Positions 9,463-17,522 of a stretch of 37,345 nt of DNA are shown here, piece after piece. A program made the position numbers and the translations under genes. The notes below the pieces were generated by a model that saw only the letters and a program-made list of their open reading frames with translations, did not search any database and was not told where the DNA came from. Every line of letters starts with the position of its first letter. The first letter of the stretch is position 1. Source of the stretch: a virus; IMG/VR virus record IMGVR_UViG_3300017917_004287, positions 1 through 37,345 of that record; one strand, 5' to 3'.

Positions 9463-9466
9463 TACT

Positions 9467-9498
9467 TAAATATAATAAAAAGAGCCTGGTTTCCCAAG
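9467..9498 (-). promoter_or_regulatory. DNA polymerase promoter (YTTGG-N19-TATATTTA), overlapping a terminator
   Basis: Minus-strand CTTGG at 9494-9498, 19-nt spacer, TATATTTA at 9467-9474, then 4 nt to the ATG of gp43. The -33 element is part of the left arm of the terminator hairpin at 9474-9503, so the two signals share bases. Confidence 0.7.
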
Positions 9499-9503
9499 CT
9501 CTT
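9474..9503 (-). terminator. Rho-independent terminator with GAAA tetraloop
   Basis: On the minus strand AAGAGCTTGG and CCAGGCTCTT form a 10-bp stem (one G-T wobble) closed by a GAAA tetraloop, followed by TTTTTATTAT. It lies 19 nt after the stop at 9523 and would end the long operon that starts near 17490. Confidence 0.85.
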
Positions 9504-9522: not shown

Positions 9523-10020
9523 TTATTTTTTATAAGCGGTATTTAAACCTTGCCATTGACCATCATACTGTTCTCCTACTTCATCAACTTTCCAGAAAGC
9601 AATTTGAGCGATACGAGCATTTTTTTCAATAACAATAACACTTGTTACAATCATTGTTGTATTCATAACATCACAATAAAATCCTGGATCCCACCAAGGT
9701 GATTCAATAATTGTTCCTGTGCGGTACAAAGATGAACGGTGGGTGATTTTCGCAGCAGCGTCAGCTGGTACTTTAATACCTTCATTAAATGTGACTGAAT
9801 ATACACCTTTTTCAAGTCTCCAACATTCTCTACCGTCTATAAGTTGAGTTGGAAGTTCATGGTAACCTGTAGCGTCAATGTGGGTTTTGTCTTTATAAAC
9901 AACAGAACCAACATCAATACGTTCAATTTTACAAACTGATAGGTCAATACCAATTTGAGCACGTTTAGAGAAATCTGATTCAATAACGTGATTTGCGATT
10001 TGATTTGAATTTAATAACAT
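9523..10020 (-). CDS. dUTPase / dCTP deaminase family protein (165 aa)
   Basis: A member of the trimeric dUTPase/dCTP deaminase superfamily. The conserved HRSSLYRTGT motif (about residues 93-102) and the following SPWWDPGFYCDVMNTT segment form the nucleotide-binding and active-site region. NARIAQIAFWKV is the usual later strand, and GEQYDGQWQG the C-terminal part. The glutamate that deaminates dCTP in Escherichia coli Dcd is not evident, so dUTP hydrolysis looks more likely, though this is a guess from motifs. It would keep uracil out of DNA and feed dUMP for dTMP synthesis. It is the last gene of the modification operon, just before the terminator. Confidence 0.85.
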   Translation of the reverse strand: MLLNSNQIANHVIESDFSKRAQIGIDLSVCKIERIDVGSVVYKDKTHIDATGYHELPTQLIDGRECWRLEKGVYSVTFNEGIKVPADAAAKITHRSSLYRTGTIIESPWWDPGFYCDVMNTTMIVTSVIVIEKNARIAQIAFWKVDEVGEQYDGQWQGLNTAYKK

Positions 10021-10191
10021 TTATTTTAATTTATTTAATATTTTATCCCAAAACAAGTCTAACTTGTCTTTTCTAGCTTTACATCCACAATCATCATAAC
10101 CCATTTTTTTAGCTATGAATAAAGCAATTCGGTGGCCTTGTCCAAAAGTAATCACACGAATTAATATTTCAACAAAACCACCTAGCTTCAT
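10021..10191 (-). CDS. Small Cys-containing hypothetical protein (56 aa)
   Basis: A short gene between the 50-aa gene and the dUTPase-like gene. ATG at 10189-10191, stop at 10021-10023 directly abutting the next ATG. The sequence starts MKLGGFVEILIRVITFGQG and has a CGC motif in GYDDCGCKARKDKLD. The vicinal cysteines could bind a metal, but there are too few ligands for a classical zinc finger. Its start shares one base with the upstream stop (TAATG), so it is translationally coupled. The family is not recognised. Confidence 0.6.
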   Translation of the reverse strand: MKLGGFVEILIRVITFGQGHRIALFIAKKMGYDDCGCKARKDKLDLFWDKILNKLK

Positions 10192-10343
10192 TAGATTTTT
10201 CCGTATTGGATTTGAATTACTTTAGCACCACGAGATTCTACAACACGTCTTGCATCTTGTTCACTCTCAGCTTGAACATGAGTTTTTGTAGTTGAAATAC
10301 TATTTCGTTCTTTAACAGTGATTGTGTATGTTCTTTTTTCCAT
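10191..10343 (-). CDS. Small hypothetical protein (50 aa)
   Basis: ATG at 10341-10343, 2 nt after the FolE stop; stop at 10191-10193 overlapping the next start. The product (MEKRTYTITVKERNSIS onward, with ARRVVESRGAKVIQIQYGKI at the end) has a beta-alpha-beta look, with a middle helix (SEQDARRVVESRG). This resembles small phage domains with a strand-helix-strand pattern, but I cannot name it. Tight coupling with folE suggests expression with the modification genes. Confidence 0.6.
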   Translation of the reverse strand: MEKRTYTITVKERNSISTTKTHVQAESEQDARRVVESRGAKVIQIQYGKI

Positions 10344-10345
10344 AA

Positions 10346-11038
10346 TTAGATCTGATGTCCTCCATTGTTAATTTTCAAGCTGTCAAAAAATTCTTTACGT
10401 GCTTGATTTTCATTTTGTAAAAATACTCCTGATGCCTTAGTAGTAACCATTGATGCACCTTGGTGTTTAACACCCCTACATGACACACATGAGTGATTGG
10501 CAACTACTGTTACAATTACACCTTTATTGTTTTCACAAATTTTATCTACTGCTTGATGAATTGCTGAAGTGAGTTGTTCTTGAATAGCTCCTCTACGACC
10601 AAAATGTTCTACAATACGGTTCAATTTAGACAAACCAATTACAGAACCATTTTCACCTACAATGTAACCAATATGAACTACACCTCCAATTGTTTGATGG
10701 TGATGAGAACACATTGATGTAAGTGGAATGTTTCGTTCAATAACAATACCATCATACCCATCACTTGGGAATGAAGTAATATCAGACATAGCTTCATAAC
10801 GACCTTTCCATAAATCAAACACATAAGCTTTAGCTACACGACGAGGTGTATCTGAACTGTTTGGATCATTTCTCCAATCGCATTGTAAAGCATCTAAAAA
10901 TTTACCATATGCCTCAGCAGCCTCATCTACCATTGCCCATTTTTCTTTTTCAGTAAATGGGAAACCAGGTGCGATCCCATTAGCATAACCTGTTTTTACA
11001 CACTCTAAATCGAGTGTAAATGTTTTTTTATTTTCCAT
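10346..11038 (-). CDS. folE: GTP cyclohydrolase I (FolE)
   Basis: The first enzyme of 7-deazaguanine synthesis, converting GTP to dihydroneopterin triphosphate. The zinc and active-site motif CSHHHQT (about residue 110) and the later NHSCVSCRGVKHQGASM segment are present. DTPRRVAKAY, ERNIPLTSMCSHH and GLSKLNRIVEHFGRRGAIQEQLT are classic family blocks. The length (230 aa) is normal. It is one of four pathway enzymes in this operon, with QueD, QueE and a QueC-like protein, which argues for DNA modification rather than folate synthesis. It lies 42 nt downstream of the phosphoribosyltransferase gene. Confidence 0.96.
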   Translation of the reverse strand: MENKKTFTLDLECVKTGYANGIAPGFPFTEKEKWAMVDEAAEAYGKFLDALQCDWRNDPNSSDTPRRVAKAYVFDLWKGRYEAMSDITSFPSDGYDGIVIERNIPLTSMCSHHHQTIGGVVHIGYIVGENGSVIGLSKLNRIVEHFGRRGAIQEQLTSAIHQAVDKICENNKGVIVTVVANHSCVSCRGVKHQGASMVTTKASGVFLQNENQARKEFFDSLKINNGGHQI

Positions 11039-11080
11039 AACGTATGTTGTAATATAATAATAATTTTTTTAATAAACAAA

Positions 11081-11596
11081 TCAAATAGAATAAACGTTTG
11101 ATAAGTTTCTATGATGTCCATTTTCATCATCTAACCCATAACCTACTAACCATTCTTCATCAACATCAAATCCATTATAATGAATTCCATCTACTGGTAG
11201 AATTAGGCTTGGGGATGATTTTCGTTTAAATAAAGTGACCACTGAAATTGTTTTTGCTCCTTTAAAGTCCAACTCAGCAATCAAGTGTTGGATTGTTTTT
11301 CCTGAGTCAGCAAAATCATCAATAAGAAAAACATGTTTGTCTTTAATATCACATTCAATGTCTTTAGTAATTTCAATTTTACCTTGCTTTTTACCAGTAT
11401 ATGATTTTGCTCTAATAAAATCACACTCAACAGGAATTGTTAAGTATTTTACAAATTCAGTAAATACCATAAACCCTCCATTAAGGATCCCTACCATTAT
11501 AAATTTACTATCATCTAAATAATGGGCATCATTTACTTCTTGAGCTAACTCATGAATACGATTTTCAATTTGTTTATGATGGAGATACAATTTCAT
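11081..11596 (-). CDS. hpt: Hypoxanthine/guanine phosphoribosyltransferase-like protein
   Basis: A 171-aa type I phosphoribosyltransferase. The PRPP-binding motif VFLIDDFADSGKT (about residues 90-102) is clear, and GILNGGF and the flexible loop region DFIRAKSYTGKKQG match hypoxanthine-guanine enzymes (the loop normally reads SSYG). It should join a 6-oxopurine to PRPP to give the nucleotide. Placement inside the 7-deazaguanine operon suggests that it recycles guanine released by DpdA or handles a 7-deazaguanine base; this is inference. Its ATG lies 23 nt inside the upstream thioredoxin-like gene. Confidence 0.85.
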   Translation of the reverse strand: MKLYLHHKQIENRIHELAQEVNDAHYLDDSKFIMVGILNGGFMVFTEFVKYLTIPVECDFIRAKSYTGKKQGKIEITKDIECDIKDKHVFLIDDFADSGKTIQHLIAELDFKGAKTISVVTLFKRKSSPSLILPVDGIHYNGFDVDEEWLVGYGLDDENGHHRNLSNVYSI

Positions 11597-11825
11597 ATAA
11601 AACTTTTTTAATTTCTTTTACACCTTCAAATTTATGTTTACCATTTTCATCTTCAATTACTAGAGTAGGTACCCATTCAATATCATAATCCTCAGTAATT
11701 AAAACATTATCATAAGTGTTAATTAATTTAATACCTAATTCTCTTTGAAATTCAAAAACAATAGGTTTTAGTTCAGCACATTTACCGCATTCATCAGTAA
11801 AGAAAAAAGTTAATTGTGGTTTCAT
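11574..11825 (-). CDS. Thioredoxin-like protein with CGKC (83 aa)
   Basis: A short thioredoxin-fold protein with a redox CXXC motif in FFTDECGKCAELKP (residues 8-21) and the cis-proline strand WVPTLVIED. The active dipeptide GK differs from thioredoxin (GP) and glutaredoxin (PY). It could supply electrons to the phage ribonucleotide reductase or serve a thiol step elsewhere. It is the second thioredoxin-like gene in this operon (the other is at 13495-13740). An AATATTTATAA motif lies 3 nt before its ATG. Confidence 0.8.
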   Translation of the reverse strand: MKPQLTFFFTDECGKCAELKPIVFEFQRELGIKLINTYDNVLITEDYDIEWVPTLVIEDENGKHKFEGVKEIKKVLYEIVSPS

Positions 11826-11828
11826 TTT

Positions 11829-11839
11829 TTATAAATATT
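11829..11839 (-). promoter_or_regulatory. AATATTTATAA motif inside the modification operon
   Basis: Minus-strand AATATTTATAA ending 3 nt before the ATG at 11825 and overlapping the stop of the thioesterase gene. It could allow separate, later expression of the thioredoxin-like, phosphoribosyltransferase and folE genes. Confidence 0.4.
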
Positions 11840-12239
11840 AAAGTTTAGAATCAGGAGTTTTAAACATTCTTTTAACTTGTTCAGAAATAGGAATAGGAAC
11901 ACCTTCTTCATCTACACGAACAAAAGTCATATTAGTAGCTAATAAAACAACCTCATCTCCTCTAAATACATTGTATGCTCTTGCTTCTACATTAAATGTA
12001 GCAGATGTGTTTCCTATTTTAACTAATTTAGCATAGATTTTAACAAGTTGTTTTTCTTTAGCAGGTTTTTTAAATACACATTGATCCATAGCAATAGTAA
12101 TCATGTTTTGACTTCTACATTTTTCCATTGCGTAGGCAGCAACCGCGGCATCTAACCAGCTGAGCAATTTGCCGCCGAATAGATTGCCGTGGAAACCTAA
12201 ATCTGATTTTTTAACTGGATGTGTAGATAATAAGTCCAT
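11838..12239 (-). CDS. Acyl-CoA thioesterase-like hotdog protein (133 aa)
   Basis: A hotdog-fold thioesterase of the YciA/acyl-CoA hydrolase type. HGNLFGGKLLSWLDAAVAAYA (residues 17-37) contains the family's N/G-G-x-L-x-x-x-D active-site helix, and the following strands (QCVFKKPAKEKQLVKIYAKL and TSATFNVEARAYN) fit the fold. Such enzymes cleave acyl-CoA thioesters. It shares one base with the end of queE (TAATG coupling), so it is made with the pathway enzymes. A thioesterase is unexpected in a phage modification operon. Whether it acts on CoA esters or on another thioester or amide-like intermediate is unknown. Confidence 0.85.
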   Translation of the reverse strand: MDLLSTHPVKKSDLGFHGNLFGGKLLSWLDAAVAAYAMEKCRSQNMITIAMDQCVFKKPAKEKQLVKIYAKLVKIGNTSATFNVEARAYNVFRGDEVVLLATNMTFVRVDEEGVPIPISEQVKRMFKTPDSKL

Positions 12240-13024
12240 TAAACAGCTCTCTTTTGATCATATGAAATGATATGATCTCTACCAGTCCAATTATAACCCA
12301 TTTCAAATGCTTTTTCTAATGAAATAGGATATTGTTTAATCAATTCTTCTCTATTATCACCTGCTGGCATTAACCATGTTTTGTTTTTAGGAATATTCAT
12401 TTCAACCCTAAATGCCTCAATTTCATCCATTGTAGCTTGAGTACCATCATAAACTGGTTTATAATGATAATCAGTATGGTAATCTAAAGTTTTACGAATT
12501 GCTTCTTTATTTAAACGAAGTTTATTATGTTGATCGATCATTTTCTGATCCACCAACTTACCCATTGGAGTGGTAACGTCAAGGCGAGGAACAGAATTAC
12601 TAAACTTTGGAGATAAAGATACCAACCCAAATGGATAATCGGTTTCAATAAAGTGACTACCTTCTGTTTCAATGGTTATACATATACCACGTTCATGAGC
12701 AAAATGAGTTAGTTCATTACATAAATCAGGAACCATTGTTGGTGAACCTCCTGTCAACATCATTTCTGTAATTTCAGGATTTTCATCATAGATTTTAATG
12801 ATATCATTGAATGTGTAAATTCCTTTTTCGGGGTGGATACTTGTATACCAAGAATCACACCAACCCCCTGCTCCAAACCAACATCTGTGAGTACAACCTG
12901 TAACCCTAATAGCTACTGTTGGACGACCTTGTCTTGAACCTTCACTTTGAATACAAGTGTAAACTTCAAGTACAGGTAATTTTTTGTTATAGTCGAGAAT
13001 ACGACCTGGTTTTTTATTTTCCAT
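12239..13024 (-). CDS. queE: 7-carboxy-7-deazaguanine synthase (QueE), radical SAM
   Basis: A radical-SAM enzyme that rearranges 6-carboxytetrahydropterin to 7-carboxy-7-deazaguanine. SEGSRQGRP and the cluster loop GCTHRCWFGAGGWCDSWY are typical of QueE, with cysteines 44, 48 and 56. The spacing is C-X3-C-X7-C, against the usual C-X3-C-X2-C, so the cluster loop is lengthened by five residues. MLTGGSP (about residue 89) is the SAM-binding GGEP-type motif and TIETEGS a later one. The length (261 aa) slightly exceeds the family norm. It starts 1 nt after the queD stop and overlaps the thioesterase by 1 nt. Confidence 0.92.
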   Translation of the reverse strand: MENKKPGRILDYNKKLPVLEVYTCIQSEGSRQGRPTVAIRVTGCTHRCWFGAGGWCDSWYTSIHPEKGIYTFNDIIKIYDENPEITEMMLTGGSPTMVPDLCNELTHFAHERGICITIETEGSHFIETDYPFGLVSLSPKFSNSVPRLDVTTPMGKLVDQKMIDQHNKLRLNKEAIRKTLDYHTDYHYKPVYDGTQATMDEIEAFRVEMNIPKNKTWLMPAGDNREELIKQYPISLEKAFEMGYNWTGRDHIISYDQKRAV

Positions 13025-13025
13025 A

Positions 13026-13502
13026 TTAATTTTCTGTATAAATTGAACTGTTTTTATCTGCTTCCCAACACTCTACTTTTGTTACTTTTACTCGACCACC
13101 ACCTTGTTTAGAAAACACATCATTGAATTTATCATAAACCAATTTAGCAGCTGACTCAGCACCAATTTTATCCATTACTCTCAAATGGCATACTGTTGGA
13201 TTCATTGACTCAAACAAGTCCAAATATGGATCATCTTTTTCAATCAATAAAGTATGATCCCACATATAATCCATCCAATCTTTTAAACCATTTCCTACAG
13301 GAACAGATTTAAACCCACCATAATCTTGAATCCAATTCATTTCATCTAACTGGTTTTCTTCTAATGGTTCCACTGATTCAAACCATACTTTAAATTTTAA
13401 AGCATAGCCATGTAATAATTGACAATGTGAATGCTGTGCTTTCCATTGTCTAATAGCAACTGAATAGTTGTCAAATAGTTTTGTTGATTGATACTTACCC
13501 AT
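13026..13502 (-). CDS. queD: 6-carboxytetrahydropterin synthase-like protein (QueD)
   Basis: A pterin synthase of the PTPS/QueD family, converting dihydroneopterin triphosphate to 6-carboxytetrahydropterin. The segment AQHSHCQLLHGYALKF (residues 22-37) holds the catalytic cysteine (Cys27) and zinc histidines. The usual HGH pair reads HGY here, so the third zinc ligand is changed or supplied by another residue such as His26. MNWIQDYGGFK, WDHTLLI and VECWEADKN match the remaining active-site blocks (Asp, His, Glu). The gene lies directly upstream of queE and overlaps the thioredoxin gene by 8 nt. Confidence 0.9.
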   Translation of the reverse strand: MGKYQSTKLFDNYSVAIRQWKAQHSHCQLLHGYALKFKVWFESVEPLEENQLDEMNWIQDYGGFKSVPVGNGLKDWMDYMWDHTLLIEKDDPYLDLFESMNPTVCHLRVMDKIGAESAAKLVYDKFNDVFSKQGGGRVKVTKVECWEADKNSSIYTEN

Positions 13503-13740
13503 TAATAAATTGCATTACTTGTTCATAACTTTTAATACCTACAAATCTACGAACTTCTTGTCCGTTTTCTACAAGTATTACTGTTGGCACACTAGATACA
13601 TTTGCTGATCGAGCTCTATCTATTTCATAATCAACATTAATTTTTTCAACAAACATTTGTTGAGATACTTGATCCATAATAGGACCTAAAGTTTGACATG
13701 GTACACACCATGGAGCTGAAAAATACATAATTTGTTTCAT
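13495..13740 (-). CDS. Thioredoxin (81 aa)
   Basis: A small thioredoxin with the active site APWCVPCQTLGP (Cys12 and Cys15) and the cis-proline strand VSSVPTVILVENG. It is shorter than bacterial thioredoxin (about 105 aa), having lost the first strand and helix, as T4 thioredoxin NrdC also is short. It probably reduces the phage class II ribonucleotide reductase, whose C-terminal cysteines need a thioredoxin. It overlaps queD by 8 nt and the upstream membrane protein gene by 4 nt. Confidence 0.92.
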   Translation of the reverse strand: MKQIMYFSAPWCVPCQTLGPIMDQVSQQMFVEKINVDYEIDRARSANVSSVPTVILVENGQEVRRFVGIKSYEQVMQFING

Positions 13741-13949
13741 ACTAGTTCTTCAATGATTCCAATAATTTCACTAATAATTAAGATAAAAACACCCAACCCA
13801 ATACTATATACTAGTGCTCCATATCCAGTTAATCTAACTGCTGATTTAAGGAAACTAACTAATTGATGTTTTTTAGGATCAGGATGTTGTTGTTTTTTGT
13901 TAATGATCTTATAATGAAGATCAGGATTAATAATGCTTTCGTTTTTCAT
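13737..13949 (-). CDS. Small single-span membrane protein (70 aa)
   Basis: An unrecognised protein with a basic N-terminal half (NKKQQHPDPKKHQLVSFLKS) and a hydrophobic C-terminal segment (about residues 42-66, GYGALVYSIGLGVFILIISEIIG). It probably sits in the inner membrane with the basic half in the cytoplasm. It overlaps both neighbours by 4 nt (ATGA), so it is co-translated with thioredoxin. A membrane protein between queC and queD is unexpected; no function is assigned. Confidence 0.55.
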   Translation of the reverse strand: MKNESIINPDLHYKIINKKQQHPDPKKHQLVSFLKSAVRLTGYGALVYSIGLGVFILIISEIIGIIEELV

Positions 13950-14161
13950 ATAATTTCTTCTTCTTTAATTAACTCGGCTCCAAAATTTTCTTCTAAGAGC
14001 CGAGTTGTATTTTCTTTAAATAATGGTTTAGCTTGAGACCAATCATAAGACCATTGAATAGATCCTTTTACTAATCCTGTAAACACCTCACCATGTTGGT
14101 TAACCACAACATACATTTGTGGATAGTCTTTTGATTTTCTATACTGTCTTCGAATGCTCAT
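13946..14161 (-). CDS. Hypothetical protein (71 aa)
   Basis: A short, unrecognised soluble protein starting MSIRRQYRKSKDYPQMYVVV and containing a W/Y-rich middle (GSIQWSYDWSQAKP) and an acidic end (AELIKEEEII). Its start lies 22 nt inside the 3' end of the queC-like gene, and its end overlaps the membrane protein gene by 4 nt. Context places it in the modification operon only by position. Confidence 0.55.
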   Translation of the reverse strand: MSIRRQYRKSKDYPQMYVVVNQHGEVFTGLVKGSIQWSYDWSQAKPLFKENTTRLLEENFGAELIKEEEII

Positions 14162-15008
14162 CTAGTATTGAAGATACGTATTCTTTTACATATTCCCAAG
14201 CTACTGGTCCAAATTCATCAGCATATTGTACAGGGTCTTTACGACCTAGTTTAATAAATGCTTCTACTCGTTCAACAGATGATGCTGATTTGTAATCACT
14301 AAACCATTCTTCTGATTCAACTGTATCTTCTCCTTCATTATAGTAAACTTTTAATTTAATGGGTTTGTAAGATGTATTTGTTTTAGCATATACCTTGTCA
14401 AATTTCAAATGTAAATACTCACAACATCTTTCTCCATCTTTCAAAATATCAAATTTATCACCTAACAAGTAAGGAGTATAAAGATATACTTTTTCAGAAC
14501 CCCAGTTACCTAATTTAAAGGCCTCAAAATCAGCATCTCTAAATTCTTGTCTACAGTCAGGATAAATTGAATGATCACCAGCATGGATTCCCATAGCAAT
14601 AGCACATTTTTTACCTGTTTGTTCTGTAATTGATAAGGCAGCTGCTTGAATAATTGAACTAAAGATTTTGTTACGATTAGGAACAACTGTTGCTTTCATA
14701 TTTTCCTCAGCGTAATGACCTTCAGGAACATCATCTCCGCCTTTTACAAGTGCTGAATTGAGTAATTTGTCAAGTCCTTTTAAAGTAATTACCTGATGTT
14801 TTACTTTAGCATAGTATTGTTCATCCTCATAACGAGAATGAGCATTTAAATACTTTACTAATTCCTTAGCTCGTTGTAGTTCAATATTATGTTTTTGCCC
14901 ATAATCAAAGGATAGTGCTGTAACTTCATAGCCATCGGCGAGTAGATGAAGCAGCAAGGTGGAGCTATCCATACCTCCACTTAATGATAATACTGCTTGT
15001 TTTGTCAT
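14139..15008 (-). CDS. queC: QueC-like 7-deazaguanine enzyme lacking the zinc cysteines
   Basis: A PP-loop ATPase of the QueC family, which normally turns 7-carboxy-7-deazaguanine into preQ0 using ATP and ammonia. The ATP loop LSGGMDSS (residues 9-16), SFDYGQKH (34-41), VVPNRN (108-113) and YPDCRQEF (149-156) are intact. The zinc site is not. Ordinary QueC has TCY or SCY followed by CGxCxxC, while here the matching positions read TSY (212-214) and SDYKSASSVERVEAF (237-251), with no cysteine after residue 196. At 289 aa it is also longer than usual (about 220-240). It may still activate the carboxylate but make a different product; a diverged 7-carboxy-7-deazaguanine decarboxylase-type enzyme (DpdL has been proposed in such phages) is one option. 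Confidence 0.88.
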   Translation of the reverse strand: MTKQAVLSLSGGMDSSTLLLHLLADGYEVTALSFDYGQKHNIELQRAKELVKYLNAHSRYEDEQYYAKVKHQVITLKGLDKLLNSALVKGGDDVPEGHYAEENMKATVVPNRNKIFSSIIQAAALSITEQTGKKCAIAMGIHAGDHSIYPDCRQEFRDADFEAFKLGNWGSEKVYLYTPYLLGDKFDILKDGERCCEYLHLKFDKVYAKTNTSYKPIKLKVYYNEGEDTVESEEWFSDYKSASSVERVEAFIKLGRKDPVQYADEFGPVAWEYVKEYVSSILDEHSKTV

Positions 15009-15343
15009 TAGAATGATATTGTTGAAAGTGTTCTAATAGATAGATCAGACATTTCGTAATCAGCTAAATCTTTGTCTCTAGCTACTTGGAAATCTACTGA
15101 TTGTCCGTTTTTAGTTTCTACCCAAAGTTCTTTAATGAATTCGGTCTTTGTGATTTTGTCATCTTTGTCTCTTGTGACTTTGAAAACTGCTACTTTATTT
15201 TGCATAATTGTATTGTTTGTTAGGTTATAAATTCCTGTTGTTAATGTACTAGAGGTTGTTATAGTTCCAGAACCAGACAATCTAAGATCACCACTGGTTG
15301 TTGGAATGTATGGTGTTGTTCCTGTATATCTAAGTGGTTCCAT
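15008..15343 (-). CDS. Hypothetical protein with Ser/Thr-rich N-terminus (111 aa)
   Basis: Unrecognised. I chose the ATG at 15341-15343, directly after the upstream stop at 15345; a TTG start at 15367 would overlap that gene. The first 45 residues are rich in S, T and G (SGDLRLSGSGTITTSSTLT). From Met47 (MQNKVAVFKVTRDKDDKITK) the protein is compact and charged, so translation from that internal ATG (near 15205) is possible. Its stop shares a base with the queC-like start (TAATG). Confidence 0.5.
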   Translation of the reverse strand: MEPLRYTGTTPYIPTTSGDLRLSGSGTITTSSTLTTGIYNLTNNTIMQNKVAVFKVTRDKDDKITKTEFIKELWVETKNGQSVDFQVARDKDLADYEMSDLSIRTLSTISF

Positions 15344-15344
15344 A

Positions 15345-15476
15345 TTATAATCTTGTTTTATTAGCAAATCTACGTAAAAGTTCTACATTAGCCAAGCTTA
15401 AGCGATGTCTATTTTCCCATAGAGCGTCTAATGTTTTTTTAATTTCTGTTTCCCAAGCGGAATTAATTTCCATCAT
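15345..15476 (-). CDS. Very small hypothetical protein (43 aa)
   Basis: The open frame extends to 15530, but the upstream part overlaps the previous gene. Two adjacent ATGs at 15474-15476 and 15471-15473, just after that gene's stop, are the likely start. The product is an amphipathic helical peptide (ETEIKKTLDALWENRHRLSLANVELLRRFAN) with a regular leucine spacing. No family is recognised. Confidence 0.45.
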   Translation of the reverse strand: MMEINSAWETEIKKTLDALWENRHRLSLANVELLRRFANKTRL

Positions 15477-15480
15477 TGGT

Positions 15481-15702
15481 TTAGAAGGGGAGTGTTTCGT
15501 ATTCATCATTTGTTTTATTAAAATATTCATCTAACCATGTTTTAGGATACATTAAAATGTTTCCTTTATATTTTGGATTTGATACCTGCTTGGTATCAAT
15601 TTTGATTTTATCAGCATTAGCAGCCGCTGCTACTTGTTTACCTAACTCTGGACCAGCTGGTTTTTTTAGGTAATCATAAAGAGAGATCATTTCAATTTCC
15701 AT
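15481..15702 (-). CDS. Hypothetical protein (73 aa)
   Basis: An unrecognised soluble protein. It begins MEIEMISLYDYLKKPAGPEL, continues with an alanine-rich helix (GKQVAAAANADKIKI) and has a well-ordered second half (KQVSNPKYKGNILMYPKTWLDEYF). The pattern is conserved-looking rather than random. It lies 4 nt after the glycosylase-like gene in the modification operon. No function is assigned. Confidence 0.55.
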   Translation of the reverse strand: MEIEMISLYDYLKKPAGPELGKQVAAAANADKIKIDTKQVSNPKYKGNILMYPKTWLDEYFNKTNDEYETLPF

Positions 15703-15706
15703 AACT

Positions 15707-16192
15707 TTATTTTTTTATATATATTTTTTCTTTAGTTCCTGCTGTTTGATCATACCACTGTTCCTTATTCATATCATACCATCTGTAAGGTAATTCAGGA
15801 TCATCATTCCAACCATGAGCACCATAATAAATAGCATCTTTTCTTAATAAATTTGCTCTATGTGACTTATGAAAATCATCATCTCCAAACCAAGAAGGCA
15901 TAGTAATTTTTTCTTCAATTACTTCTTTTTTCATGGTATTGTTTTTACCTCTTGCAACCCAAACGTCTATAGAGTCGTTTAAATATTTTTTTAACGCGGG
16001 TATGTTATCTCTAAACATCTGGCTTATAGGGTGGTTTATGCGGCCTTTAGAATATGGTTTACCGGTTAATGTTGGTCTACCTTCTAGACCAGCTATTAAT
16101 TGATAAGTTTCTACTCTTTGTTTACCTAAACGTTTGTCATCTAGAGATTCAAGTGACTTTTTAAAATCTGGATATGGTAAAAATACTTGCAT
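15707..16192 (-). CDS. Pyrimidine-dimer glycosylase-like protein (161 aa)
   Basis: The N-terminus MQVFLPYPDFKKSLESLDD followed by KRLGKQRVE, then NHPISQMFRD, MPSWFGDDDF and HKSHRANLLRKD matches the widespread small-protein family often annotated as pyrimidine dimer DNA glycosylase (endonuclease V/DenV-like, Pyr_excise superfamily). True T4 DenV has a different N-terminus, so the activity is not certain. The start shares one base with the dpdA stop (TAATG), so it is strictly coupled to the DNA transglycosylase. It may act on DNA or on modified bases; it could also be plain UV repair. Confidence 0.65.
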   Translation of the reverse strand: MQVFLPYPDFKKSLESLDDKRLGKQRVETYQLIAGLEGRPTLTGKPYSKGRINHPISQMFRDNIPALKKYLNDSIDVWVARGKNNTMKKEVIEEKITMPSWFGDDDFHKSHRANLLRKDAIYYGAHGWNDDPELPYRWYDMNKEQWYDQTAGTKEKIYIKK

Positions 16193-16968
16193 TATTTTAA
16201 TAGTTTTCTAAACATTCTTAAATTCCAATCAAGTAAGTTATAATCTATATCTGTGTTATAAAAATTATCATTCATATTTGATTTTGGTTTTTCAGTTAAA
16301 CCATTTCTACCATATTGAATGCCATCTAAAGTTGCCATAATGGGGTTTGATGTATCAATAGTTTCAATAAAAGGCATATCTTTATACCAACTAAATTCTT
16401 GAGGTACTTGACATCCTAGTAAATGTACTCTATCTTTATCAGCAATTAATCCTATATGATACATTCTACCTATTACCTCAATCCTACCTAATGCTTTAGC
16501 TATATTTTCATTAGGATGATTAGAATGATCTAAATAATACTCAGCTCCATAAGAAAATGCAATCTTTTTATAACCTAAGTCTTTGTATGTTTGATAACAC
16601 AAAACAGCATCTAAAAAGTTTTGAGCTTGAACAACTGCTATTTTAGTAACACCTTTAGGCAATTCAATTTTAGCCCATTTTCTAGCATTAACAATAGAAG
16701 CAGTTGTATCTTGCCAAACATCAGGCACAATAAATTCATTTGGTTTTAATTCATCAATCCAATACAACAAACGATCTTCACCATATGCTACTCCTAACTC
16801 ATGTAATGAGTTATCCATAATATTATAAATGCCTTGTTGTTTTACTTTATAAAAAAAGTCTTTATAATCCTCATCTTTATCTAATAGGTGAGGTAGGCAA
16901 TACTGGTAGTCATTAAAATCTAGGCTGTCTTCTAATAGACAAATAGGTACTTCATGTGATATCTTCAT
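16192..16968 (-). CDS. dpdA: DpdA-like DNA guanine transglycosylase
   Basis: A 258-aa protein of the tRNA-guanine transglycosylase-like DpdA group, which swaps guanine in DNA for a 7-deazaguanine base. Visible features are the N-terminal DYQYCLPHLL block, IMDNSLHELG, IVPDVWQDTTAS (with the expected active-site aspartate region), KIAFSYGAEYY, HLLGCQVPQEFSWY and IETIDTSNPIMATLDG, in the order expected for the TIM-barrel. The long zinc-binding tail of tRNA enzymes is not evident. Companion folE, queD, queE and queC-like genes in the same operon strongly support DNA modification. It overlaps the upstream gene by 4 nt (ATGA). I cannot assign a DpdA subfamily by eye. Confidence 0.88.
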   Translation of the reverse strand: MKISHEVPICLLEDSLDFNDYQYCLPHLLDKDEDYKDFFYKVKQQGIYNIMDNSLHELGVAYGEDRLLYWIDELKPNEFIVPDVWQDTTASIVNARKWAKIELPKGVTKIAVVQAQNFLDAVLCYQTYKDLGYKKIAFSYGAEYYLDHSNHPNENIAKALGRIEVIGRMYHIGLIADKDRVHLLGCQVPQEFSWYKDMPFIETIDTSNPIMATLDGIQYGRNGLTEKPKSNMNDNFYNTDIDYNLLDWNLRMFRKLLK

Positions 16969-17453
16969 ATAACTTGTTTTTTAGGTCTTCCACGTCGTTT
17001 AGGAGCTACTCTCCTAACATTGTATTTTGTATTAGCATAAATATAATAATCTTTTATAGATAAGCCAAATGATTTAATTTCTTCTTCAACCTTTATTTTA
17101 TCAACTTCAAAATGATCATAAATAGCATCTACAAAATTGTTTAATTTATCATCATCATCTTGATAATGGTCTTTCATTAAACGTTCATATTTACTTAATA
17201 ACAACCCACCACGTTTAGCTCTTTCAAAATCTTCTAAACCAGCATTATCATTGTCATACTTTTCCCATAAGGCGGATTGAGCCATCCAAAAATATGGAGA
17301 TGGGTCAAAATCACCATTATTTATTCTTTTTTCAATATGGGCAGATTTAGGTAATGTTTTAGGAATATTATAATTCCTCCACCATCTGAATGGACTATAA
17401 TTTAATTTTTGTAATCCTTTTAAATGTTTTTGAATAACTTCTCTTGAATGCAT
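16965..17453 (-). CDS. AT-hook-tailed hypothetical protein coupled to dpdA (162 aa)
   Basis: First gene of the modification operon. The family is not recognised. The body is helical with many aromatics (SPFRWWRNYN, PYFWMAQSALWEKYDN) and an acidic run (YQDDDDKLNNF). The C-terminus ends in a basic AT-hook-like motif, APKRRGRPKKQV, which commonly binds the minor groove of A/T-rich DNA. Its stop overlaps the dpdA start by 4 nt, so the two proteins are made together, which suggests a DNA-binding partner for DpdA; this is inference. The promoter-like site lies 37 nt upstream. Confidence 0.65.
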   Translation of the reverse strand: MHSREVIQKHLKGLQKLNYSPFRWWRNYNIPKTLPKSAHIEKRINNGDFDPSPYFWMAQSALWEKYDNDNAGLEDFERAKRGGLLLSKYERLMKDHYQDDDDKLNNFVDAIYDHFEVDKIKVEEEIKSFGLSIKDYYIYANTKYNVRRVAPKRRGRPKKQVI

Positions 17454-17490: not shown

Positions 17491-17522
17491 TTAATATAGC
17501 ATTAAACTTCAACTAAGCCAAA
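17491..17522 (-). promoter_or_regulatory. Promoter of the DNA-modification operon, with inverted repeat
   Basis: Minus-strand TTTGG at 17518-17522, 19-nt spacer, TATATTAA at 17491-17498, then 37 nt to the ATG at 17453. A perfect inverted repeat (7-bp arms ATGCTAT/ATAGCAT, 4-nt centre, 17485-17502) covers the -7 box and could be an operator. Confidence 0.72.

Follow-up and report, generated by a model that had tools for sequence, protein, structure and literature searches.

The window, i.e. the whole stretch of DNA that was analysed, is the complete 37,345-base IMG/VR virus record IMGVR_UViG_3300017917_004287. When it was compared with PHROG profiles, genes for DNA polymerase, GroEL, ribonucleotide reductase and a DnaB-like helicase were observed; a tRNA search of the full 37,345 bases found none, and no near DNA match to the window was present among 50,697 phage records. 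This report concerns positions 9523-17453, where 19 minus-strand open reading frames (ORFs) form an operon that very probably encodes a pathway for 7-deazaguanine modification of phage DNA. The gene of main interest encodes a purine phosphoribosyltransferase (PRTase) of the hypoxanthine-guanine (HGPRT) type, which may return guanine to this pathway as guanosine triphosphate (GTP). All features are listed in Table 1.

The original prediction, made from the letters alone, had described this run of 19 overlapping genes, and all ORFs were found in their places. Coding sequence makes up 99.2 % of the bases; the ends of consecutive ORFs lie 0-42 bases apart or overlap, by 50 bases at most. The strong terminator predicted downstream was also recovered. 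Its hairpin lies at the same place in all four relatives from which the dcd-polB gap could be extracted (six were tried), and the stem letters have changed in most of the sequences when the window and these relatives are compared. The proposed upstream boundary did not hold up. A promoter-like site is present at 17493-17521, but 51 sites of this kind were counted in the region, and shuffled sequence would give 55.6. The site is also not conserved in close relatives, whose sequence differs at this place; the operon start is therefore not established. A TTATATT-like motif was seen just before start codons, at about 9465-9475 of the window (before polB) and, in the related loci L029 and L033, in the gap before the gene neighbouring dpdA. 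It could be a phage promoter element.

Table 1 Features of the operon in order of transcription. Lengths are in amino acids (aa); fractions of 84 refer to those of loci L056-L214 that carry DpdA together with QueC
Feature	Position	Strand	Basis or remark
162-aa helical protein	16965..17453	-	overlaps dpdA by 4 bases
DpdA-type DNA-guanine transglycosylase (predicted), 258 aa	16192..16968	-	homology, fold
Pyr_excise / MSMEG_6728-family protein, accessory	15707..16192	-	in 0/84 loci
73-aa protein	15481..15702	-	in many loci a relative lies near queC; also in phage immuto
61-aa ORF	15345..15530	-	
119-aa ORF, TTG start, poorly conserved	15008..15367	-	
QueC, subfamily without zinc cysteines	14139..15008	-	PF06508, 1.4e-38
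71-aa ORF	13946..14161	-	
70-aa putative membrane protein, conserved	13737..13949	-	in 57/84 loci
Thioredoxin-like protein, conserved	13495..13740	-	
QueD-like 6-carboxytetrahydropterin synthase	13026..13502	-	PF01242, 1.7e-10, 41 bits vs cut-off 22.4; PHROG 2389, 4.6e-32
QueE-like radical SAM 7-carboxy-7-deazaguanine synthase	12239..13024	-	PHROG 2076, 1.3e-43
Hotdog (4HBT) thioesterase, accessory	11838..12239	-	in 15/84 loci
Thioredoxin-like protein	11574..11825	-	
HGPRT-type purine PRTase	11081..11596	-	PDB sequence matches, NCBIfam
FolE, GTP cyclohydrolase I	10346..11038	-	PF01227, 2e-42, 145 bits vs cut-off 27
50-aa ORF	10191..10343	-	
56-aa ORF	10021..10191	-	
dCTP deaminase / dUTPase-like protein, accessory	9523..10020	-	in 16/84 loci
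Intrinsic terminator	9480-9503	-	10-pair hairpin then T-run, 3' of last operon gene

The transglycosylase and the 7-deazaguanine pathway genes

The candidate DpdA matched no Pfam or NCBIfam model and hit PHROG 19058 and, weakly, PHROG 20335, both labelled 'unknown function'. Relatives were found in 18 of the 50,697 phage records, namely in 14 Campylobacter and four Flavobacterium records, of which the Flavobacterium ones are annotated as DpdA. The window protein shares 33 % identity over 98 % (E-value 8e-37) with the annotated DpdA of Flavobacterium phage vB_FspM_immuto (hereafter immuto) and 37 % identity with a relative of equal length in Campylobacter phage CP220. A sequence search of the PDB with a profile of the DpdA alignment returned chance-like matches only. 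When the AlphaFold2 model (pLDDT 83.7) was compared with the PDB by Foldseek, the best match was 7UI4, the DNA preQ0 insertase DpdA (E-value 2.7e-5). VIA gave a Z score of 17.4 and a root mean square deviation of 3.3 over 226 aligned residues for this pair, and the remaining VIA rows shown are archaeal and bacterial tRNA-guanine transglycosylases (TGTs). Residues D52 (xDNSxxEL; MDNSLHEL in the window) and D205 (xDTSNP; IDTSNP in the window), candidates for the two catalytic aspartates of a DpdA, are invariant in 20 of 20 aligned rows and are also present in immuto and CP220.

The zinc motif of tRNA TGTs is CxCxxC...H. CxCxxC is absent from the window protein, and its assignment as a tRNA TGT was rejected for this reason. 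The earlier dpdA-like label stands, being backed by homology to the annotated immuto protein and by a fold nearest to 7UI4; instead of grouping with unrelated proteins, the product falls with the immuto and CP220 transglycosylases. Its assignment as a DpdA of the immuto/CP220 type is supported, and from its homology and modelled fold we predict that it exchanges bases in DNA. Hutinet 2019 (PMC6884629) put Campylobacter phages among those without DpdA, whereas CP220 does carry a relative of the window DpdA.

The presence of folE, queD, queE and a queC-like gene in one run, as originally proposed, was borne out by Pfam and PHROG profiles. In FolE, C110, H113 and C184, which we take to be Cys/His/Cys metal ligands, are invariant in eight of eight aligned sequences. 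The QueD-like product scored below the cut-off of the NCBIfam QueD equivalog, and a sequence-profile search of the PDB with it found nothing. When it was aligned with an approximate E. coli QueD sequence, one of the three histidines that bind zinc in the E. coli enzyme had a counterpart. Where the E. coli letters read LHGH, all aligned copies read LHGY, and a further zinc histidine is missing from them. The QueE-like product scored below the cut-offs of the Pfam radical SAM and NCBIfam models.

The window QueC belongs to a variant form. According to PMC13329287, canonical QueC (cluster 1) is defined by the motifs SGGxDS, YxQxHxxE, VPxRN, YPDC and C(x)8CxxCxxC, and several residues of these motifs were shown to be needed. 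The first four motifs and the essential Tyr of the zinc region are all present in the window protein, where S, D, S and S stand in place of the four zinc cysteines, as read from the alignment. C(x)8CxxCxxC is absent from all 27 aligned copies that reach the site. Among 100 further viral copies the zinc cysteines are lost in 98; one (L186) has all four and one is too short. Other phage QueC proteins keep them in eight of eight cases.

When the 80 best relatives on genome contigs were searched with a regular expression, 78 also did not contain the four-cysteine pattern. Zinc-less relatives were found in phages, archaea and Planctomycetes, and in Poseidoniales archaea the zinc-less queC adjoins folE and queE. 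A phage-only invention was therefore rejected. A few of the zinc-less-QueC contigs carry a relative of the window DpdA nearby and are probably viral. Many of the Poseidoniales ORFs (L229-L300), which lie in a folE-queE-queC cluster, run into an extra C-terminal stretch that, as we read it, resembles methionine sulfoxide reductase B.

Zinc-less QueC co-occurs with QueF in immuto, L107, L111 and L184, which suggests that the zinc-less form can reach preQ0. Judged from its sequence, the window protein would work like QueC, and we class it as a variant of canonical QueC; a hallmark motif of QueC would then be dispensable in a large natural subfamily. We also considered a 'zinc-sparing pathway', drawing together QueC and DpdA without zinc motifs, the altered QueD histidines and the use of FolE2 in L033. 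This idea was not pressed, as the window FolE keeps its metal ligands.

QueF was not found in 21 related IMG/VR records, of which many are fragments, nor in CP220, and immuto was the only positive of the 23 searched; Pfam detected no amidotransferase domain in the window QueC. By the logic of Hutinet 2019 (PMC6884629), this combination points to dPreQ0 or dADG, and the inserted base is most likely preQ0 or its amide ADG.

The route to preQ0 is common to queuosine, so these genes might instead raise queuosine in host tRNA with no modification of phage DNA, an explanation that Hutinet 2019 (PMC6884629) offers for phages without DpdA. The transglycosylase at this locus is nearest to DpdA 7UI4 and not to tRNA TGT, it is in the same family as the annotated one of immuto, and QueF was not found in the 21 related records. 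We consider the tRNA role highly improbable. The claim that a DpdA-type enzyme modifies guanines in this phage genome is instead supported by homology, by fold and by the conserved gene set. The gene set, its conservation and the DpdA fold are established here; the activities of all the enzymes, the exact base and the extent of replacement are predictions from them.

A purine phosphoribosyltransferase linked to FolE

The strongest link to the pathway was found for a gene that the original prediction had left unnamed, the PRTase gene, which looks like a guanine salvage gene rather than a tailoring gene. PDB sequence matches of its product are nearly all purine PRTases, with HG(X)PRT enzymes as the best, and this establishes its identity as a purine PRTase. 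The NCBIfam HGPRTase model (TIGR01203) was the best match by far (4e-40, 137.3 bits); as the score lies under the 150-bit cut-off, the protein is named HGPRT-type only. Residues D93, D94 and D97, S65 and Y66, K124 and D156 are invariant in 10 of 10 rows. We take them to be the motif for phosphoribosyl pyrophosphate (PRPP), the SY loop and the base-binding residues, respectively. Guanine is the substrate common to HGPRT-type and Gpt-type PRTases and would be the main substrate of the window enzyme. Among the close relatives L003-L022, QueD (91-98 % or about 45 % identity), the PRTase (92 % or about 44 %) and the neighbour of DpdA (69-93 % or about 26 %) each occur as two sharply different alleles, which look as if they had been swapped as cassettes.

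The linkage of the PRTase was analysed in relatives and loci that were not dereplicated; L008/L009 and L023/L024, for example, look near-identical at these genes. All 13 DpdA-selected viral loci holding queE and folE contain a PRTase, which is of the HPRT type in 12 and of the Gpt type in one (L031). For the reverse test we took the best 80 of 326 HPRT relatives and the best 80 of at least 461 Gpt relatives, of which 79 were left after the already known L031 was removed; both samples lean towards relatives of the queries. At least one pathway gene was found in the locus for 76 of 80 HPRT and 79 of 79 Gpt relatives, and at least two for 70 of 80 and 70 of 79; dpdA was present in 53 of 80 and 48 of 79 loci. 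The midpoints of the PRTase and of FolE or FolE2 are no more than 1 kb apart in 63/80 HPRT and 66/79 Gpt loci (129/159 together). Of the four HPRT exceptions, two have QueE elsewhere in the record (L061 and L063) and one has FolE about 12 kb away (L057); the record of L062 shows neither QueE nor FolE.

The forward test used the best 80 FolE loci with no selection on the PRTase. In 54 of them 2 kb were available on both sides, and a PRTase was found within 2 kb in 37 of these 54 and within 6 kb in six more. In L033 a Gpt-type PRTase stands directly before FolE2 (GTP cyclohydrolase IB, 14704-15744; 273 bits, over the cut-off), which occupies the place of FolE, and in immuto a Gpt-type PRTase lies beside FolE. 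These arrangements in distant relatives indicate that a different form took the place of the PRTase and also of the cyclohydrolase, while the pair was kept.

Among the 50,697 isolate-phage records, HPRT-type matches occurred in 18 and Gpt-type matches in 26. Many of the 18 are unannotated or resemble bacterial DNA. In Brevundimonas phage MaInes, FolE and the PRTase are adjacent. In the jumbo Pseudomonas phage Callisto (L218), a gpt-annotated PRTase adjoins queE, and the record has no match to the window DpdA profile.

Several Gpt-type matches fell within genes annotated as GTP cyclohydrolase. When the first 115 residues of Gp31 of Sphingomonas phage MMDA13 were used as a query, 37 records matched, four being the stand-alone gene of immuto and 33 coming from other phages (Pseudomonas, Vibrio, Stenotrophomonas, Sphingomonas, Variovorax and Xanthomonas). 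Of these 33, some of which are GenBank/RefSeq duplicates, 30 matches lie within a gene annotated as FolE and three are unannotated. The four sequences that were read (NP1, VpKK5, MMDA13 and Bhz54) show an N-terminal PRGG, DD[IL]xD[ST]G, K and PW stretch followed by FolE. At about 115 aa the fused Gpt-like domain is compact, and its matches to PRTase profiles are weak, the best being a xanthine PRTase model with 1.1e-8 (VpKK5). The word 'phosphoribosyl' does not occur in the main text of the MMDA13 paper (PMC7472734). The match hints at what the N-terminal domain, so far unexplained, may do in several cultured phages. That the PRTase is linked to FolE, and in some phages fused to it, is established here.

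The small size and weak scores of the fused domain would also fit a sensor, i.e. a PRTase, above all in its compact fused form, that senses guanine, guanosine monophosphate (GMP) or PRPP and regulates FolE without being a working enzyme; GMP, moreover, is not a substrate of FolE. In the stand-alone HPRT set, however, the PRPP motif, the SY pair and the base-pocket Lys/Asp are all invariant, and a protein that only senses its ligand could do without them. We regard regulation as a very unlikely function.

General purine salvage for phage DNA synthesis is a further explanation, under which the PRTase would stand beside FolE because both belong to a shared block of nucleotide metabolism. The dCTP deaminase, the thioredoxins and the ribonucleotide reductase in or near the operon agree with it, but the dCTP deaminase is present in only 16 of the 84 DpdA and QueC loci, against 129 of 159 PRTase-selected loci with FolE within 1 kb. 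Two PRTase types occupy the same slot, a fusion with FolE exists, and matches of either type are as rare in isolate phages as the counts above show. General salvage is unlikely on this evidence.

Proposed guanine recycling and the other genes of the operon

FolE, QueD, QueE and QueC would make the 7-deazaguanine base from GTP, and a DpdA of the immuto/CP220 type would swap this base for guanine in finished phage DNA, following the base-exchange mechanism given for DpdA in PMC6884629. The modified DNA would be hidden from restriction enzymes, and every exchange would release one guanine. The HGPRT-type PRTase would then join the freed guanine to PRPP, yielding GMP, and host kinases would raise GMP to GTP, the substrate of FolE, closing a guanine-recycling loop. 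As a DpdA-type gene is found in the same operons, post-replicative exchange that frees guanine is to be expected, and a PRTase that adjoins or is fused with the GTP-spending FolE is most simply a recycling step. We put the probability of this role, in which the PRTase feeds the guanine set free by DpdA back into the GTP supply of FolE, at roughly 60 %.

The PRTase might also act on the modified base itself, converting the 7-deazaguanine base to a nucleotide that, after reduction and phosphorylation, would give a modified dGTP for incorporation by the phage DNA polymerase. Such a route is unnecessary given the DpdA in the operon, and the PRTase adjoins FolE, not a kinase. In addition, the invariant D97 aligns with the HPRT Asp that we take to contact purine N7, and 7-deazaguanines have no N7. 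On the other side, a DNA polymerase gene follows the operon, ribonucleotide reductase is encoded nearby in the window, thioredoxin is common in the operon, and a dNTP route had previously been proposed for Campylobacter phages, as reported in Hutinet 2019 (PMC6884629). Taken together, we find incorporation by the polymerase quite improbable.

Several observations weigh against recycling by the PRTase. CP220 has the DpdA type of the window and no PF00156 match, and PF00156 is absent from seven of seven control records of well-known deazaguanine phages, one of which has the compact fused form missed by Pfam. In the forward test, 11 of the 54 flanked FolE loci had no PRTase within 6 kb. Three of these have one elsewhere in the record, and in the other eight (8/54) none was detected in the whole record, two such records being about 160 kb long. 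Finally, as GMP is not the substrate of FolE, the fusion would give no direct channelling. Guanine recycling, if real, would from these absences be helpful rather than obligatory.

If replacement were complete, we estimate that about 2.5 million guanines, or about 4 mM in 1 fL, would be set free (30.8 % GC; assumed genome of 160 kb and burst of 50). The solubility of guanine is low. There may be an even chance that phage 7-deazaguanine modification in general is a cycle, in which a PRTase (HGPRT, Gpt, or Gpt-like and fused to FolE) refills the GTP pool and makes genome-wide replacement affordable.

The original prediction had also proposed the intervening genes as tailoring or targeting factors. 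This part was mostly unsupported. The thioesterase, the dCTP deaminase and the Pyr_excise-family gene were rejected as core tailoring steps since they occur in 15, 16 and 0 of the 84 loci, respectively. In some close relatives the Pyr_excise/MSMEG_6728-family gene directly follows dpdA. The putative membrane protein and the 162-aa protein recur (57/84 and 55/84) and may be partners. The 162-aa protein had no fold match at E ≤ 0.001, an absence that is not evidence of a new fold, and its C-terminal KRRGRPKK stretch resembles an AT-hook.

Comparison with known systems

That phages protect their DNA from restriction by 7-deazaguanine modification is known. What becomes of the guanine that DpdA displaces is a question that the papers searched do not take up, and the recurrent PRTase, which comes in two types and adjoins FolE or is fused to it, offers a directly testable answer. 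When the literature on DpdA or QueE was searched for guanine salvage or phosphoribosyltransferase, no paper stating the PRTase link was found; this search did not cover Cui 2023 and Crippen 2019. The main text of Hutinet 2019 (PMC6884629) does not contain 'phosphoribosyl'.

Like the window, immuto (MW353176) has FolE, a PRTase, QueE, QueD, a DpdA and a QueC without zinc cysteines, which is 62 % identical. It differs from the window in the additional presence of QueF and of a formyltransferase-like gene, in a PRTase of the Gpt type, in a family A DNA polymerase and in a QueC that lies apart from the other pathway genes. CP220 (Firehammervirus) shares the DpdA relative, QueD, QueC and FolE with the window; its QueC, in contrast, keeps the zinc cysteines, no PRTase was found and the genes are scattered. 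According to Crippen 2019, CP220 DNA is reportedly fully replaced with dADG, and Cui et al. 2023 (NAR 51:9214) are said to have described a subfamily, DpdA3, which is found in Campylobacter and Flavobacterium phages and with which all guanine can be replaced. Judged by homology, the window DpdA should belong to DpdA3.

Sphingomonas phage MMDA13, the Nipunavirus NP1 and Vibrio phage VpKK5, among others, resemble the window in having a Gpt-like PRTase tied to FolE and an operon with a transglycosylase gene. They differ in that the PRTase is compact and fused and that their transglycosylases were not found by the window DpdA profile. Escherichia phage CAjan and Mycobacterium phage Rosebush have the same minimal FolE-QueD-QueE-QueC-DpdA set, leading to dPreQ0 according to Hutinet 2019 (PMC6884629), with DpdA types other than that of the window. 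The DNA 7-deazaguanine operon is already known in kind from these phages, and what is new in the window is its PRTase component and its zinc-less QueC.

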